From Campylobacteraceae bacterium (GTDB lineage: Bacteria > Campylobacterota > Campylobacteria > Campylobacterales > Sulfurovaceae): a stretch of DNA of 42,881 nucleotides. The stretch lies in assembly GCA_027068975.1 (NCBI GenBank), contig JALXFN010000123.1:1-42881 (forward strand), in the 5' to 3' direction. This document shows positions 7,338 through 15,290 of this stretch, piece after piece; within the stretch, counting starts at the first letter, position 1; each line of letters starts with the position of its first letter. The position numbers were made by a program, and so were the translations under genes. The notes beneath the pieces are model-generated. The model was not told where the DNA came from and made no database searches. It saw only the letters and a list, made by a program, of their open reading frames with translations.

Positions 7338-10007
7338 TTAAAAAGCTGCACCAAACATAAATCTTATCTGTTCTCTATCTTGGACATCTTTATTATAAAT
7401 CCACTCTATATTTAGAGGAATAGTCGCTTTATGTAAAAAGAGTAAATCCAACTCTAAACCTACTGTACTCTCATTGTACTGCTTATTTTCTCTATCAGTA
7501 AAATCTATATCATAAAATCTATTTTTTAAATATAAACTCTCACGCTGCAAAGAGAGAGGAAAAGAGTAAAAATAGAGTGACCCATCAAACACTTTTGCCA
7601 AACTCAACTCTGCCATTTTTGCCTCTTTTGCATATGCTGTTCTTTCTATGCTTGGCATGTTTAAAGTAGCTTTGTCTGATTGTAAAGATGAAAAACCATC
7701 ACGTATCTCTACCCCTTTTTCTCTAAGAGGGTTAACCTCATCACTTTTGATATATTTTCCTTTTATCCCCACATAACTCTGCCAAGGTAAATCATGTTTA
7801 AATATATAATCTATACCAAAAATATTACTCTCTCTATCTTTCGTAGCAAACACAGAGAGGGCATTTAGCTCATTGGCATATTTACTAAAACCATACTGTT
7901 TATGATTGCTAATATCTAATGAAAGAGTCAACGGCTCTCTATAGATATTATCATAAGCTTTAGTATACGCCAAAGTTGTATCGCCCCTCCAATAGCCAGT
8001 GGCTAAAAATGGTAAGTTCAGATAAGCTTCATACCCATAATCACGCTCTTCATCTGTTTGAATGACACTTTCATCATGCTTCACCCCATAAACAGCCCCT
8101 CCAAACTCAAGCTGATGGGCTTGATTATCATACTTTAAACCTCCTACAACTCTCTGCTTATTATAAGAGAGAAGAGCAGAGAGTGAGTTTTGCATTAAAG
8201 GGTCAAAGAAATTGGCTTGAACATCTACTCCAAACCCTTCATAATCCCCATAGCTAGTAGCATAATTAAGTGAGCTATACTTCAATTGCGTTAAAGCATT
8301 ATAAGGTTTTGAATTTATAGGTTTACCATCTCTAGCAAAATTGGTTCTCCGTAGGGTGCCGTTTTCCAACGCACCTTTATCAATCTCAATTTTATATGGT
8401 CGGTTAGCACCGACCCTACGCGTATCCAACCTTATAACCCTATACGCATACCCATCTGCCCCAACAGTAGCTACCAAAGCCTGATGTTCATCTATAATTT
8501 TAAACTCTATCACATCATCACCCTGCGTTACCCGTTCTGTTTTCCCATTAACAAACTTATAAACAGTACTTCCATGCTCACTAGACGCTATAAAATAGAC
8601 AGCCCCAAACTCATCTACATCGGTCACAAAACCATAATGCCCCTCATAGTCAAAAAGTGCTATTTTGTTTTTATAGAGTATACGTTTTTCACCCTCTTGT
8701 TTAAAGTAGTAGAGGTCTCCCTTTTTGTCAACATAAACAGAAGAGTGACTCTGCGTATAAAACTTACCATCAACATAAACATGAGGATTTTCTAAAGATT
8801 TCTCTACATCAAAATAGACCTCTTTTCCATCAGGTTTAAAACCTTGAACAACCTTTGAGCCTTCGCCTTCTACCAAAGTACCATCTTCATGAAAGAGTCC
8901 CATCTCTATTTTAGTAGGAGAGGTTTTGGCTGTACTCTGAACAACATACTCTCCATTTCGCTTAAAGAGTTCCCCTACTCTCCAAGACCCCTCTTTAAAA
9001 CTCACTGCTTCACTCTGTTTGTTGAAGAGAAATATTTTAGGAGCCGATTTTCTATCCCCCACAAGGGTATAAATCTCATTATCTGTAACATTTAAAGGGG
9101 TAAAGAGCTGACTTCTTACAAGCACTTCTCCTTTTGTTACTTTAGCATTAGCATGTTTATTTTTTAGCTCTTCGACAAACTCTGCTAAAAGCACTTCAAA
9201 GTTTTTTCCATACTGCTCTTTAAACATCCTATTGGTAAAAAATGGAAAAGGTTGAGTTGCATACCTTTTAAAATAACCATTCACCTTCTCTACACCATAC
9301 TTCTCTACTAAAAACTGTTGAAAAAATCCACCCACCAAGTAGAATTTCTCTCCATAAGGAAAGTTCAACGTAGTGTTATACATGAGTTGTGGTGTAATCT
9401 CCCCTGCTTTTGCCAATGCCACAACCTCTGCTAAGGCATAACCAGAGAAGAGTCGCCCACCATTACCATAACGAGACTCATTCATAACAGCATTCCCCTC
9501 TAATACAAATGAACTCTCTGTAATATTAGGAATAGGAAAAAGAGGTAAAATACCAAGCATACTAAAAGGTGTGTTTCCTAAAACCTTATGGCTTATACGA
9601 GATAACTCATTCTCTTTAGGATTTAACTGAAAGTTATGTGCTGTCTCATGAATCACCAAAGTCTTTAACCATGATGTGGCACAAAAATAATCAATCATCC
9701 CAGCACCTGCACCATAAAAGAGTTGAGAGTTAAAAGGAAACTGAGTAGAGAAGCCATTGGCTATTTGGTTGTTTTGTGAAGCCAACCCCACATAGAGTTT
9801 ATCATCAAGTTTAAAACCATACTCCTTCTCATAACCTTTTACTATCTCTTCTTGATACATCTTCATATCGGACATCATTCCAGCATATTCATTGGAGTAA
9901 ACATAAGAGAGTTTTTCATCATCAGCAATTACATAGTCATCAGGAACCACTACCCCTGCTGATAAAAGAAGTGTTGAGAAAGATAAAGAGAGTACGATTT
10001 TATACAT
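7338..10007 (-). CDS. Exported HExxH metallopeptidase with propeller-like middle and C-terminal barrel
   Basis: This 889-residue protein has a signal peptide (1-17). The catalytic region contains LVIHETAHNF: His120, Glu121 and His124 form the zinc motif, and Glu170 in FVLEGNA is the probable third ligand, as in gluzincins. The middle (about 300-540) has repeated YxF/YxV strands such as DLYYFKQEGEKRILYKN, resembling a beta-propeller. The last 330 residues alternate hydrophobic and polar strands and end in FMFGAAF, an outer-membrane-barrel ending. It is probably a peptidase anchored in the outer membrane; side and substrate are unknown. A 69-bp REP pair lies in frame at about residues 530-552. 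The gene is monocistronic. Confidence 0.7.
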   Translation of the reverse strand: MYKIVLSLSFSTLLLSAGVVVPDDYVIADDEKLSYVYSNEYAGMMSDMKMYQEEIVKGYEKEYGFKLDDKLYVGLASQNNQIANGFSTQFPFNSQLFYGAGAGMIDYFCATSWLKTLVIHETAHNFQLNPKENELSRISHKVLGNTPFSMLGILPLFPIPNITESSFVLEGNAVMNESRYGNGGRLFSGYALAEVVALAKAGEITPQLMYNTTLNFPYGEKFYLVGGFFQQFLVEKYGVEKVNGYFKRYATQPFPFFTNRMFKEQYGKNFEVLLAEFVEELKNKHANAKVTKGEVLVRSQLFTPLNVTDNEIYTLVGDRKSAPKIFLFNKQSEAVSFKEGSWRVGELFKRNGEYVVQSTAKTSPTKIEMGLFHEDGTLVEGEGSKVVQGFKPDGKEVYFDVEKSLENPHVYVDGKFYTQSHSSVYVDKKGDLYYFKQEGEKRILYKNKIALFDYEGHYGFVTDVDEFGAVYFIASSEHGSTVYKFVNGKTERVTQGDDVIEFKIIDEHQALVATVGADGYAYRVIRLDTRRVGANRPYKIEIDKGALENGTLRRTNFARDGKPINSKPYNALTQLKYSSLNYATSYGDYEGFGVDVQANFFDPLMQNSLSALLSYNKQRVVGGLKYDNQAHQLEFGGAVYGVKHDESVIQTDEERDYGYEAYLNLPFLATGYWRGDTTLAYTKAYDNIYREPLTLSLDISNHKQYGFSKYANELNALSVFATKDRESNIFGIDYIFKHDLPWQSYVGIKGKYIKSDEVNPLREKGVEIRDGFSSLQSDKATLNMPSIERTAYAKEAKMAELSLAKVFDGSLYFYSFPLSLQRESLYLKNRFYDIDFTDRENKQYNESTVGLELDLLFLHKATIPLNIEWIYNKDVQDREQIRFMFGAAF
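8351..8419. repeat. In-frame GTAG-headed REP pair inside the metallopeptidase gene
   Basis: The left unit is GTAG (8351-8354) plus an imperfect hairpin 8355-8375 (GGTGC, one bulged C, GTT, loop TTCC, AACGCACC). The right unit is in inverse orientation: GGTCGGT (8398-8404), loop TAGC, ACCGACC (8409-8415), then CTAC (8416-8419), which is GTAG on the other strand. The pair spans 69 bp, exactly 23 codons, and keeps the reading frame, adding residues around RRVGANRPYK and LENGTLRR. The right unit has the same 7-bp stem design as the REPs flanking the RAYT gene. Confidence 0.75.
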
Positions 10008-11385: not shown

Positions 11386-11445
11386 TCTTAAAAACCCGTT
11401 CAAAATCTAAACTAACATTACAAGTAGTCTCTTCAAAGTTATAAC
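11386..11445. repeat. 60-bp dispersed repeat, copy 1
   Basis: This segment is about 57/60 identical to the reverse complement of 29067-29126. The core includes AAAACCCGTTCAAAATCTAA. It runs from the intergenic space into the last codons and stop of the PIN-toxin gene. It contains a short palindrome around ACAAGTAGT but no stable hairpin. Function is unknown. Confidence 0.7.
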
Positions 11446-11894
11446 GATTCCAAAACATCATCAACCATCTTTTTAGAGATTCTATAGCCATTATCTATGG
11501 CACTCTCCATAAACTCACTAGCCTCTCTCTTTGTCAAAAACCCTTTTTTCGCATTTAGATAGACTACACCCAAAAGACCAATAACTTTTAATCCCATTGT
11601 TTTTGCTATTTTTCTACCTTTTTTTTCATCTATTATAAGAGATAGATTTTTCTCTTTTGCTAAAGCAATGGCTTCTGACTCTCCAAGGTCAAGATGTATT
11701 TTTAGGGAATTAAAAAGCTCATTATCTTTTAACTTTTCAACTTTCATAAAAGATGGTAAAACTACAGGATATTTAAAACTTATCTCTTCCAATACAATGG
11801 GGGTAATATAGACTACCTCAAAGAGATTTTCCAAAAGTTCAACCCTATCTAAGTCAAACAAAACGATAAGTGCAGTACTATCAGAGATAATCAT
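11439..11894 (-). CDS. PIN-domain toxin, DUF3368-like
   Basis: This 151-residue protein is a predicted ribonuclease toxin of the PIN superfamily. It starts MIISDSTALI with acidic Asp5, has LGESEAIALAKE in the middle and LIIDEKKGRKIAK with another acidic residue. These are the spaced carboxylates of PIN nucleases and match the DUF3368 subgroup. Its start overlaps the stop of the upstream antitoxin gene by 4 bp, the standard arrangement of a type II toxin-antitoxin operon. Its last codons fall inside the 60-bp dispersed repeat. Confidence 0.8.
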   Translation of the reverse strand: MIISDSTALIVLFDLDRVELLENLFEVVYITPIVLEEISFKYPVVLPSFMKVEKLKDNELFNSLKIHLDLGESEAIALAKEKNLSLIIDEKKGRKIAKTMGLKVIGLLGVVYLNAKKGFLTKREASEFMESAIDNGYRISKKMVDDVLESL

Positions 11895-12214
11895 AAAAAG
11901 CTATCCAAATCTTTTAGTTCATCTTTAAAATCATAATCTATTACATCAATACCCATAAGCGAAAGCATTTTCATCGTCTCTTTTTTAGAGATATTTAAAG
12001 CTTTAGATAACTGACCTAAACTTAGTAGAGATTTTTGATAAGCATCTACCATTAGAGCTGTTTTTAGCCCTTCTGTTACTATTTTATCATCAAAAGCAAG
12101 AGCAATCCCCAAAGGTTTACTTCTTTTTGTAATCAGAGTATACTCTTGTGCCTCCAATGCTTTTGTTAATATGGCAGGGTTTACTTGTAAATCTTTTATA
12201 CCTATTGTCTGCAT
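11891..12214 (-). CDS. Antitoxin, UPF0175-like, partner of the PIN toxin
   Basis: This 107-residue protein begins MQTIGIKDLQVNPAILTKAL, a prevent-host-death-like DNA-binding start. It continues with SLGQLSKALNISKKETMKMLSLMGIDVIDY, the helix-turn-helix typical of UPF0175 antitoxins, and ends in an acidic tail (KDELKDLDSFL) likely to bind the toxin. I chose the ATG at 12214 because AAAGGA lies six bases upstream; a TTG two codons earlier overlaps that site. It presumably represses its own operon. The toxin start overlaps its stop. Confidence 0.75.
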   Translation of the reverse strand: MQTIGIKDLQVNPAILTKALEAQEYTLITKRSKPLGIALAFDDKIVTEGLKTALMVDAYQKSLLSLGQLSKALNISKKETMKMLSLMGIDVIDYDFKDELKDLDSFL

Positions 12215-12312
12215 GGTCAATCCTTTGTACTTACTTTTGATAGTATATCATTTTTTATTTAAAAACTTGCTCGTTTCTATTTGCCATTATTGTATATAAA
12301 AATTTTTTAAGT

Positions 12313-12464
12313 GGGGCAAACCCCGTAGGTTCGGTAATACCGAACATCTAATCCCCAAATATCATTGCTAATGCCTAACATTTAAATATCAAATATTTCG
12401 ATAACAGAAAACAGAAAATGTCTCATTCATGAAATCTTTTAATGTTCGGTGTTACCGAACCTAC
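12313..12464. repeat. Inverted pair of GTAG REP sequences downstream of the RAYT gene
   Basis: Unit 1: a GGGG-CAAA-CCCC hairpin (12313-12324), then GTAG (12325-12328), stem GTTCGGT (12329-12335), loop AAT and ACCGAAC (12339-12345). Unit 2 is inverted: GTTCGGT (12444-12450), loop GTT, ACCGAAC (12454-12460) and CTAC (12461-12464). The two match at all but one base over the tetranucleotide, stem and adjacent AT. About 100 bp of AT-rich sequence separates them. A GTAG head with a 7-bp hairpin beside a RAYT gene is the classic REP design. Confidence 0.8.
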
Positions 12465-12499: not shown

Positions 12500-13279
12500 C
12501 TATAAAATCTTCCCCACCATCACAACACTCAACCCCACAAACCGAGCTATCTCAGCCTTACTGTACCCATACTCCCAAGCTCTTTTCATATTTTCATTAC
12601 GATTAATATCTATGTCTTCTTCAAAAAAACTTTTCAATCGCTTATAGAGAACTCTCATCTCTCCATCTTTGGTAACTATTTTTGGAGTAGCATATATCTC
12701 TAAAAACTCCTCTTCATTCATCTTCTCATAGATATATCGTTCATACTCCTCTAAAGTCATATCAAAGATTAAAGAGTCTTTCAGTAGTTTAAGATGTTTA
12801 GCTCTATTTTTCCACTGAAAAAAGGATTGATAAGCATACTCCTCTATCTGATTAACCATCTTAGCTGTTATGGGGTTTCGTTCAATATATTTAGCCACAA
12901 TCCAAGCATGAGCATTATCATAGAGATAGTAAGAGAGGTAACGCCCCTGCCAAAAGTGACCTGTTCGCTTATATTTTTTGTTAAAGTACATGGAGTAAGT
13001 TCCATTGAGGTACTGTATAGCTTCGGAGATATTTTCATCAGAAGTTTCAAGGAGCAAATGATAGTGGTTGGTCATCAAACAGTAAGCATGGAACTTAATA
13101 TTAAACTTCTCCAACATATTTTCAATGAGTTCCATAAACTTCTCGTAGTCTTCCTCTTCTAAAAAAACTTTTCGTTTTGCTACACCACGGTTAATGATAT
13201 GATAAATACCTTTGTAGGTTATGCGTTGTTTTCTTGGGATGATGGACTCCTTTTTCTTAGTGAAATAGAAGTCTATCAT
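12500..13279 (-). CDS. REP-associated tyrosine transposase (RAYT, Y1 family)
   Basis: This 259-residue protein is a single-strand DNA transposase of the IS200/IS605-related RAYT group. PRKQRITYKGIYHIINRG is the usual start. FHAYCLMTNHYHLLLET holds the HxH metal motif, and NGTYSMYFNKKYKRTGHFWQGRYLS is diagnostic. The catalytic Tyr is expected in the helix around HAWIVAKYIERNP. The C-terminus (RAWEYGYSKAEIARFVGLS) is a helix-turn-helix. A strong AAGGAG site (complement of 13248-13253) is followed by ATC rather than ATG just before PRKQR, so translation either starts at the upstream ATG used here or is impaired. Confidence 0.88.
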   Translation of the reverse strand: MIDFYFTKKKESIIPRKQRITYKGIYHIINRGVAKRKVFLEEEDYEKFMELIENMLEKFNIKFHAYCLMTNHYHLLLETSDENISEAIQYLNGTYSMYFNKKYKRTGHFWQGRYLSYYLYDNAHAWIVAKYIERNPITAKMVNQIEEYAYQSFFQWKNRAKHLKLLKDSLIFDMTLEEYERYIYEKMNEEEFLEIYATPKIVTKDGEMRVLYKRLKSFFEEDIDINRNENMKRAWEYGYSKAEIARFVGLSVVMVGKIL

Positions 13280-13336
13280 TTTTTAGATAAAGTATAAAAT
13301 AAGTTTAGTTATCTATTTGGGGTCAGACACCTTGGC
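13241..13336. repeat. GGGGTCAGACCCC repeat, copy A (5' flank of the RAYT gene)
   Basis: The sequence from GATGGACTCC (13241) through the RAYT start codons to TTATCTATTTGGGGTCAGA and ACACC (13331) is shared with copies B-E. In this copy the terminal palindrome is imperfect (GGGGTCAGACACC, 13319-13331). It lies between the RAYT gene and the YgiT/DUF4258 pair. Confidence 0.75.
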
Positions 13337-13340
13337 TTGT

Positions 13341-13574
13341 TTAAGCAACATTCAACTGATAATCACGAATATCTACTTTAACACCACTTGCTACAATCTC
13401 TCGACTTTTTTGCAAAATGGCAGAAGTAACCTCTCCTTTGACATATTTTTCACCACAATTATCACAAACCAATGCAGGAACTTGTTGAAAAACAATTGTC
13501 GCTCCATTTTTCTCTAAAGTAATGGTTGTAAAGCCATCCACAGTTTCACCATGTTTACAAATTGTACATTTCAT
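13341..13574 (-). CDS. YgiT-type zinc-finger antitoxin
   Basis: This 77-residue protein has two CxxC pairs (Cys3/Cys6 and Cys37/Cys40 in LVCDNCGEKY) that bind structural zinc, as in the N-terminal half of MqsA/YgiT antitoxins. No DNA-binding domain follows, which is usual for this short subfamily. The gene starts one base after the stop of the DUF4258 gene, so toxin precedes antitoxin. Its 3' end lies next to repeat copy A. Confidence 0.82.
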   Translation of the reverse strand: MKCTICKHGETVDGFTTITLEKNGATIVFQQVPALVCDNCGEKYVKGEVTSAILQKSREIVASGVKVDIRDYQLNVA

Positions 13575-13575
13575 T

Positions 13576-13848
13576 TTAGACCTTTCTTGTTTTTAAATCT
13601 TCTTGCCATTTCGTCAAATTTGGTTTATAGGCAGTAATAACAATAACATTATCTTCTTCATCTTTTGCATAAACAACATGAAGTGCAATACCATCAACAT
13701 TACCTAAAGTTAAAAAAGATGGATAGGGTTTGTCATCAATATAAGACTCTATAACCTCACCATTTTCAATTACCTCTTCTACTTGTTTTTCACTAATGTC
13801 TCTTTGAAACATTCGTTCAATAGCATGAAGTCTATAGATATATTCCAA
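13576..13848 (-). CDS. DUF4258 toxin
   Basis: This 90-residue protein matches DUF4258, the usual partner of short YgiT zinc-finger antitoxins: HAIERMFQRDISEKQVEEVIENGEVIE followed by a beta-sheet with HVVYAKDEEDNVIVITAYKP. The fold is related to RelE/MqsR-type ribonuclease toxins; activity here is inferred. The start codon is TTG with AAAGG six bases upstream. A TATAAT-like promoter lies near 13875-13885 on the - strand. An almost identical but truncated copy lies at 14685-14903. Confidence 0.8.
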   Translation of the reverse strand: MEYIYRLHAIERMFQRDISEKQVEEVIENGEVIESYIDDKPYPSFLTLGNVDGIALHVVYAKDEEDNVIVITAYKPNLTKWQEDLKTRKV

Positions 13849-13935
13849 AAGTTGCCTTTAATTGTATTCATTTGGTTTATTATATCACAGCAAAACCTAA
13901 ATTATCTTATTCAGTTGTGGAATGCCTATTGGTAT

Positions 13936-14035
13936 GATGGACTCCTTTTTCTTAGTGAAATAGAAGTCTATCATTTTCTTGAATAAAGCATAAATTAAGC
14001 TTAGTTATCTATTTGGGGTCAGACCCCCTTAGCCA
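13936..14035. repeat. GGGGTCAGACCCC repeat, copy B, with a RAYT 5' remnant
   Basis: This copy aligns with 13241-13336 base for base apart from scattered changes, including the GATGGACTCC ribosome-binding region and the first RAYT codons. It ends in a perfect GGGGTCAGACCCC palindrome (14015-14027). It is the 5' end of a lost RAYT gene or a mobilised 5' flank. It separates the DUF4258 pair from the HigB/HigA pair. Confidence 0.75.
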
Positions 14036-14084
14036 CTGTAGATTAAAAACTTGACAATTCGTATCTTTTAAGATACACTACACT

Positions 14085-14384
14085 ATGTACACAATTAAAG
14101 AGACTGAAATATTTTCAAAATGGTTACTAAAGCTCAAAGATACAAAAGGTAAAGTTTCTATTTTACGAAGAATCAAGAGAGTAACACAAGGAAATTTTGG
14201 AGACCATAAATCTGTTGGTGATGGTGTAAGCGAACTTAGGATGACAACTGGTCCTGGTTATCGTGTTTACTATACCCAAAGAGGTAGTGAAATCATAGTT
14301 TTACTAATAGGTGGTGACAAATCAAGTCAATCAAAAGATATAGAAAAAGCCAAAGAACTAGCAAAGGAGTACCAAGATGAGTAA
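14085..14384 (+). CDS. HigB/RelE-family toxin
   Basis: This 99-residue protein fits the short RelE-superfamily addiction-module killer group. It starts with FSKWLLKLKDTKGKVSILRRIKRV, continues with GDHKSVGDGVSELRMTTGPGYRVYYTQRGSEIIVLLIGGDKSSQSKDI, and ends with a basic-acidic helix. SELRM, GYRVYY and LLIGGDK are family hallmarks. Members cleave mRNA, often on ribosomes; that is family knowledge. It is co-transcribed with the antitoxin, whose start overlaps its stop by 8 bp. Confidence 0.88.
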   Translation: MYTIKETEIFSKWLLKLKDTKGKVSILRRIKRVTQGNFGDHKSVGDGVSELRMTTGPGYRVYYTQRGSEIIVLLIGGDKSSQSKDIEKAKELAKEYQDE

Positions 14385-14658
14385 TGAACTAAACACATTT
14401 GATATAGCAAAATATCTTGATAGCAATGAAGTTATTGCAGAGTATCTTTCTCAAATATTAGAAGATGGAGATTTAGATGAGCTTTTATCAGCTATAGGAG
14501 ATATTGCAAGAGCCAAAGGAATGACTCAAATTGCAAAAGATACAGGACTTGGTAGAGAGAGTCTCTATAAATCATTTACTGTAGGGGCAAGACCTAGATT
14601 TGATACCATTTTAAAGGTTTTAAACTCTTTTGGTATTCGCCTACAGGCTGTTTCTTAA
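14377..14658 (+). CDS. HigA-like antidote protein
   Basis: This 93-residue protein has the acidic N-terminal segment DIAKYLDSNEVIAEYLSQILEDGD and a Cro/CI-type helix-turn-helix, AIGDIARAKGMTQIAKDTGLGRESLYKSF, as in the addiction-module antidote family. It should bind the HigB/RelE-like toxin and repress the operon. Repeat copy C begins at its stop codon, so the pair is bounded by repeats on both sides. Confidence 0.88.
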   Translation: MSNELNTFDIAKYLDSNEVIAEYLSQILEDGDLDELLSAIGDIARAKGMTQIAKDTGLGRESLYKSFTVGARPRFDTILKVLNSFGIRLQAVS

Positions 14659-14708
14659 ATAAAGTTATATTTAAGCTTAGTTATCTATTTGGGGTCAGAC
14701 CCTTTAGC
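14656..14708. repeat. GGGGTCAGACCCC repeat, copy C
   Basis: TTAAGCTTAGTTATCTATTT precedes GGGGTCAGACCC (14691-14702) and then TTTAGC. Only the distal part of the repeat is present. Its right edge is fused to the truncated DUF4258 gene, and the fusion supplies the new stop codon of that gene. Confidence 0.75.
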
Positions 14709-14903
14709 TTCTTCATCTTTTGCATAAACAACATGAAGTGCAATATCATCAACATTACCTAAAGTTAGAAAAGATGGATAGGGTTTGTCATCAATATAAG
14801 ACTCTATAATCTCACCATTTTCAATTACTTCTTCTACTTGTTTTTCACTAATGTCTCTTTGAAACATTCGCTCAATAGCATGAAGTCTATAGATATATTC
14901 CAA
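14685..14903 (-). pseudogene. Truncated DUF4258 toxin gene fused to repeat copy C
   Basis: The first 65 residues are almost identical to the DUF4258 protein at 13576-13848, with the same TTG start and upstream region. After KDEE the frame enters repeat copy C, reads AKGSDPK and stops. The break is at about 14707, where both copies share CTTCTTCATC. The last beta-strands and the YgiT antitoxin are missing, so this is probably an inactive remnant from repeat-mediated recombination. Confidence 0.85.
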
Positions 14904-15013
14904 AAGTTGCCTTTTTAATTTATGTTTATTATAGCAAAAAAATCTTACTAAAACTAAAGGGTAATAATAACCTCATTTTCTCCTATACACTCCCACTTAG
15001 GAGTTATGGGAGT

Positions 15014-15109
15014 AAGTTAAAATAGAAGTCTATTGTTTTTCAGATAAAGTACAAATTAAGTTTAGTTATCTGTATGGGGTCAGACCCCGTAGCTTAGACC
15101 CCGTAGCTT
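15014..15109. repeat. GGGGTCAGACCCC repeat, copy D, with 14-bp tandem duplication
   Basis: AATAGAAGTCTATTG and AGATAAAGTACAAATTAAG match the RAYT 5' flank. The palindrome GGGGTCAGACCCC is perfect (15076-15088). The end is duplicated: AGACCCCGTAGCTT occurs at 15082-15095 and again at 15096-15109. Confidence 0.75.
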
Positions 15110-15200
15110 TTGGAACTCATTCTCAACTTTTTAAATAGAATAATTTCGATGAATGAGTTTAAGAGCTAGAGTTGTCATTGTCATCTGACAGCTCTATTTA

Positions 15201-15290
15201 CTAGATAAAGCATAAATTAAGCTTAGTTATCTATTTAGGGTCAGACCCCTTAGCTCGACCCCTTAGCTCCCTTAGCTCGACCCCTTAGCT
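15201..15290. repeat. GGGGTCAGACCCC repeat, copy E, with 13-bp tandem repeats
   Basis: AGATAAAGCATAAATTAAGC through TTATCTATTTAGGGTCAGA is followed by a tandem array of GACCCCTTAGCTC at 15243-15255, 15256-15268, a partial CCTTAGCTC at 15269-15277 and 15278-15290. The array has the hallmarks of replication slippage at the repeat end. Confidence 0.75.

Follow-up and report, generated by a model that had tools for sequence, protein, structure and literature searches.

What process places a pair of GTAG-headed REP hairpins in frame within a protein-coding gene, and what becomes of the pair afterwards? The question arises from a metallopeptidase-like gene in a 42,881-nucleotide stretch of DNA from a Campylobacteraceae bacterium (the window; its genome is G000, and the window's gene is row L058 among the orthologues). 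A first-pass annotation had reported two such hairpins in inverse orientation, spanning 69 bp with no stop, and had taken them to be inserted as a unit. Both hairpins are present (Table 1), and the 69 bp are stop-free in the frame of the host gene, where they encode RRVGANRPYKIEIDKGALENGTLR (residues 530-553). In each unit the GTAG tetranucleotide lies directly 5' of a short palindrome, as in the GTAG REP superfamily, and the inverse orientation of the units, with heads 69 nt apart, is that of a REPIN. In the mRNA of this minus-strand gene the right unit comes first, in sense, and the left unit second, in antisense. As discussed below, the pair is probably old, and its hairpins appear to have turned over in place.

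Table 1. Features discussed in the text; positions are those of the window unless another locus is named.
Feature	Position	Strand	Remarks
Host gene, 889 aa	7338..10007	-	HExxH metallopeptidase-like helical N-part, propeller-like strands, C-terminal beta-barrel-like strands
Interdomain linker, residues 527-574	8286..8429	-	between propeller-like and barrel-like parts; low-confidence model
Left REP unit GTAGGGTGCCGTTTTCCAACGCACC	8351..8375	+	25 nt, one-base bulge
Spacer between the units	8376..8397	no strand	homologous among orthologues with different hairpins (codon alignment)
Right REP unit GTAGGGTCGGTGCTAACCGACC	8398..8419	-	7-bp stem, loop GCTA
REP GTAGGTTCGGTAATACCGAAC beside RAYT gene	12325..12345	+	
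REP GTAGGTTCGGTAACACCGAAC beside RAYT gene	12444..12464	-	
RAYT-like Y1 transposase gene (PF01797)	12500..13279	-	NF047646 REP_Tyr_transpos, 63.5 bits, under the cut-off of 80
cbiD-like gene	L003 886-1866 (G000:C2:13909-14889)		RAYT-class REP GTAGGTTCGGTAACACCGAAC in frame, in four genus rows
cobB/cbiA-like gene	L028 884-2152 (G000:C2:7247-8515)		same contig as cbiD-like gene; REP GTAGGGTGCGATTGCCATCGCACC in frame
Glycosyltransferase-9-like (GT9-like) gene	L004 1041-2030 (G000:C3:21916-22905)		REP with a true insertion of ~33 nt

Searches of Pfam, NCBIfam and PDB sequences returned no match for the host protein; weak hits to DUF and PDZ appeared only in single relatives and were set aside. The structure model is poor overall (mean pLDDT 54, 8 sequences) and served solely to show how helices, strands and linker follow one another. 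With low confidence, it predicts helices to residue 284, including the HExxH motif, strands from 294 to 526 and barrel-like strands from 575. Residues 527-574, between strands 519-526 and 575-581, are predicted at the same low confidence to have almost no secondary structure. The placement of the pair between propeller-like and barrel parts, which the annotation had suggested, is thus plausible in this model, with strands ending at 526 and restarting at 575. The host protein appears to be of outer-membrane type and carries the REP pair in its flexible joint.

The two units of the window belong to different REP classes. The right unit has the stem design of the REPs beside the RAYT-like gene, as the annotation had stated (GTAGGGTCGGT..ACCGACC versus GTAGGTTCGGT..ACCGAAC at 12325 and 12464). 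That design is not matched by the left unit, which is of the GTAGGGTGC..GCACC class, a related member of which flanks another transposase gene at C137. REPs of related design flank both the RAYT-like gene of the window and the one at C137, and G000 holds six RAYT-type genes in all. The pair resembles REPINs and BIMEs in its inverse REPs, its short spacer and a genome with RAYT-type genes, and differs from them in joining two classes, although both units are of one class in the orthologues L062 and L064.

Several observations exclude chance as the origin of the REP likeness of both hairpins. With the protein held fixed, the best linker hairpin exceeded all of 1000 synonymous-codon shuffles (p = 0.001), and the folding of the linker RNA lay at z = -4.9 relative to such shuffles, its stability being greater than that of every other tested window of the gene. 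An intergenic copy at C73:47087 (the unit itself at G000:C73:47087-47111) repeats the left unit exactly, and with 5 flanking bases the identity extends to 30 nt. A genome-wide count of GTAG hairpins, which the annotation had proposed, was made by pattern searches: GTAGGGT(N9-15)ACC has 127 sites in the 2.78-Mb genome and the reversed-pattern control has 19, so the family has the many copies of a GTAG REP superfamily member. The genome also holds 40 GTAGGGTGC..GCACC hairpins and 25 GTAGGKTCGGT sites. Most of the ten genomes of the genus that were searched show an excess of GTAGGGT(N9-15)ACC, which is only weak in G022, G025 and G009. The head 7-mer alone showed no enrichment in the window (4 found, 2.4 expected), and no match was found to a pattern combining a perfect REP and a second head. 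The REPs are mostly intergenic, with 11 of 55 distinct units lying within stop-to-stop frames of at least 130 codons; on the evidence of frame and start position, some six of these, spread over five genes, probably fall in coding sequence. A MAFFT alignment of mixed REPs mis-paired the 20-nt forms and was set aside.

If the pair had been inserted as a unit, relatives should show a clean gap of about 69 bp (23 codons). A homologue of the host gene was found in 29 of 34 genomes of the genus, and 30 rows, including a few from other genera, cover the linker; all genomes examined appear to be draft MAGs. None of the 29 other rows has such a gap. The linker is variable in sequence and nearly constant in length, measuring 36-38 aa in rows with REPs, 33-37 aa in most rows that lack them and 26-32 aa in a few distant rows, so that rows with REPs exceed most others by 1-3 codons. 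The pair differs in this respect from the Rickettsia palindromic elements, which are likewise palindromic repeats in frame within genes, in that the elements of the window are GTAG-tagged and show no net insertion. The annotation had also allowed that distant orthologues might carry the same residues, which would make the segment native protein sequence; they do not, and seven orthologues, the window gene among them, have REP hairpins of differing sequence there.

GTAG hairpins occur at these codons in 7 of the 30 orthologues, the window gene included, down to about 64% identity (synonymous-shuffle p from 0.001 to 0.007 for each). None of the other 23 rows has a p below 0.05, one lying at 0.05, and an eighth row, L063, has a hairpin with a GTAA head. 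The hairpins of the seven rows often differ in stem, loop and REP class. The right unit is GTAGGGTCGGTGCTAACCGACC in L058, GTAGGGGCGGTGATAACCGACC in L061, GTAGAATCGATGATAATCGACC in L062, GTAGGGTTGGCTTTAGCCAACG in L066 and GTAGGGTGCAATTTATTACACC in L064; it is common to L058 and L061 and has an altered form in L062. The left unit is common to L058, L059 (identical) and L060 (one change). The head-to-head distance is 69 nt in L058, L062 and L064, with a recognisably homologous spacer. Across the right units the inner stem pairs are complementary in 23 of 24 cells, one pair showing C-G, T-G, T-A and G-C states, and when arms were re-paired between species only 4 of 720 arrangements equalled the observed pairing; this covariation comes from six sequences of common descent, a relatedness that the permutation leaves out of account.

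The comparison of L058 with L061 localizes one such change. The two genes are 86% identical. Of 878 codon windows (mean 86%) the left unit is the least similar, at 38%, and it contains no indel; the right unit reaches 92%. The change may also have run the other way, L061 having lost a unit. Some in-gene units lie close to REPs of their own genome, with 0 edits to the nearest for the left unit of G000 and 1 each for the right units of G014 and G022; such closeness is reached by random hairpins of like design at a frequency of 0 to 0.0023. The right unit of G000, both units of G024 and the right unit of G025 are 2-5 edits from the nearest listed REP, a distance that is not telling. Within the linker, each unit of L062 repeats the other in inverse orientation over 19 nt (1 mismatch), and the same is true of L064 over 13 nt. 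As a separate observation, GGTCATAATGCCAATGTTGACC-like DNA replaces the right unit at linker codons 528-536 of L059 and L060, although the gene tree places L058 and L059 as sisters, which suggests local recombination or a second rewrite.

We consider it probable that the locus holds an old in-frame GTAG-REP pair, REPIN- or BIME-like, at a disordered interdomain joint, and that its hairpins have been turning over in place. The same codons carry different hairpins at the same or nearly the same length. A single acquisition is most likely, by a common ancestor of roughly ten of the species sampled, whose linker would have tolerated the pair. The original event could have been an insertion balanced by a later deletion, as the linkers with REPs run 1-3 codons longer. 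Some units would then have been overwritten by the REP class current in the lineage, as the near-exact genomic matches suggest. Others may have been rewritten by inverted-repeat template switching, in which one arm or unit is copied onto its inverted partner, because the units of L062 and of L064 are complementary to each other. RAYT-type transposases are the likely source of the circulating REPs. Only frame-preserving outcomes would survive, and the codon count would therefore be kept; no benefit to the host protein would be required. Import from the genomic pool and inverted copying both fit the data, and each may have contributed; for the left unit of L058 import would be needed because nothing else in the linker could template the copy. 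Some observations speak against this reading. A single acquisition is weakened by the gene tree, on which the rows with REPs need at least two changes and a clade without REPs is the sister of one REP group; G022 (a MAG, 96% complete) has a good linker hairpin, yet no PF01797 gene was found in it; and the REP of the GT9-like gene came with a true insertion.

An alternative is that REPs were inserted repeatedly and independently at one hot spot, each insertion being balanced by deletion as the protein fixes the length of the linker. The REP class does differ by lineage, with several units near the classes of their own genome, and the minimum of two tree changes would be expected. A similar case is known from two Xanthomonas species, which have different REPs at about the same recB site (PMC3733652). 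However, a homologous spacer and an equal head distance in L058, L062 and L064 would be unexpected from independent events, and we regard such recurrent insertion as unlikely.

Another possibility is that selection keeps the hairpins as a functional mRNA or single-stranded DNA element, such as a hairpin for pausing or stability where the two domains meet. The compensatory pair changes in coding DNA are what such selection would leave, and in L058, L062 and L064 the linker RNA folds more stably than its synonymous shuffles (z about -3 to -5). The cbiA-like and cbiD-like genes of Table 1 have the REP window among their best-conserved windows, third positions included. Most orthologues of the host gene, however, do without such a hairpin, among them L067, the sister of L064, and L061 keeps one hairpin yet has no excess stability (z = 0). 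Template switching can yield the same covariation without selection (PMC8794818). Selection on the hairpins is unlikely as the explanation; it and recurrent insertion are the chief rivals.

A recent and simple in-frame insertion of one 69-bp pair is very unlikely. The units are real REPs, one with a close genomic copy, in a tolerant linker, and the GT9-like gene of G000 has a true REP insertion of ~33 nt. The absence of a ~69-bp gap and the nearly equal length of linkers without REPs argue against it, as does the sharing of units between rows, the right one with L061 and, in altered form, L062, and the left one among L058-L060. That native protein sequence resembles REPs by chance, a reading in keeping with a homologous linker of similar length in nearly all orthologues, can be set aside as highly improbable, being refuted by the exact 30-nt match to an intergenic REP and opposed by the synonymous shuffles and the genome-wide REP family.

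The preferred reading, an old pair with turnover in place, has precedents. The annotation had described in-frame palindromes as known mainly from Rickettsia, a view that is out of date: GTAG palindromes in frame within ORFs of several species were catalogued in 2013 (PMC3733652; BMC Genomics 2013, 14:522). In that study the intragenic REPs are often dimers of 20-30 codons, flexible linkers or loops are proposed as sites, and the short Rickettsia repeats are of CGTC type, RPE-1 being longer. The present pair is alike in being an in-frame GTAG dimer at a linker site. The catalogued REPs were described as interruptions or insertions, whereas the length here is near-constant among relatives, and the present case follows one pair site through 30 orthologues with hairpin turnover. 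Intragenic GTAG REPs are thus already published, and what is new is the long-lived, length-neutral turnover. When the REP at an orthologous site next to a RAYT gene changes class, the event has been termed an orthoswitch (PMC3686654; BMC Genomics 2013, 14:385). There, too, orthologous REPs become another variant with the palindrome kept, but the present site lies inside a different reading frame, some 4 kb away from the transposase gene, so that the case extends orthoswitch-like turnover to a coding site. RAYT proteins cleave single-stranded REPs next to the hairpin and are able to transfer strands in vitro (PMC8266576). Template switching is known to maintain hairpins through length-neutral multi-base and compensatory stem changes (PMC8794818), both of which are seen here; alone it cannot supply the left unit of L058, which is unlike the rest of the linker and equals a genomic REP exactly.

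Other genes of G000 carry in-frame REPs as well. At the cbiD-like site, the REP rows L124-L127 are equal in length to several rows without REPs (L128-L130, L133), and agreement among the REP rows is 98% against a gene mean of 78%, the top of 315 windows. The CbiD structure 1sr8 is about 6 residues shorter at the REP region, a difference compatible with an old insertion there and with none. The REP of the cobB/cbiA-like gene occupies 8 codons, with a net change of 0 or 2-4 codons relative to most rows without it. Among the REP-bearing rows it is the top window at third positions (96% versus 69%); against L114, which lacks the REP, its identity of 17-21% is about the lowest of the gene. The GT9-like gene, so labelled from the look of its sequence, has an orthologue, L137, with a seeming changed-stem REP variant elsewhere in the same loop (AVGSISSN). 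Length-neutral REPs are therefore recurrent in G000 and not universal, and four genes are too few for a rate. A wider proposal, which we offer tentatively and consider somewhat doubtful, is that in this Campylobacterota genus REPs enter or change in coding DNA by equal-length overwriting rather than by insertion, a site being repeatedly rewritten by the active REP class; the reading frame would then be kept automatically.

For the question of how REPs spread, orthologous in-frame sites provide a reading-frame ruler on which events can be measured to the base, separating insertion, replacement and arm-to-arm copying. If replacement is what occurs, it would point to strand exchange or template switching over insertion, and would account for the presence of such repeats in genes that remain intact.

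Several further features were observed in G000. At L008 374-1597 (G000:C35), a REP lies in codons that resemble the signal peptide of a porin-like protein (MQKIVTLSFIVCSVLPNLHA). Adjoining the RAYT-like gene of the window are two overlapping small genes (11439-12220) that resemble a PIN-domain toxin and its antitoxin and for which no NCBIfam match was found. Beside the same gene, positions 13263-15256 hold five copies of a ~76-nt repeat with TTTAGTTATCTATTTGGGGTCAGACCCC or close variants. Between these repeats lie small genes of toxin-antitoxin-like appearance and a piece of 211 nt that is present twice (13649-13859 and 14704-14914, 97%), and the whole looks like a cassette array.
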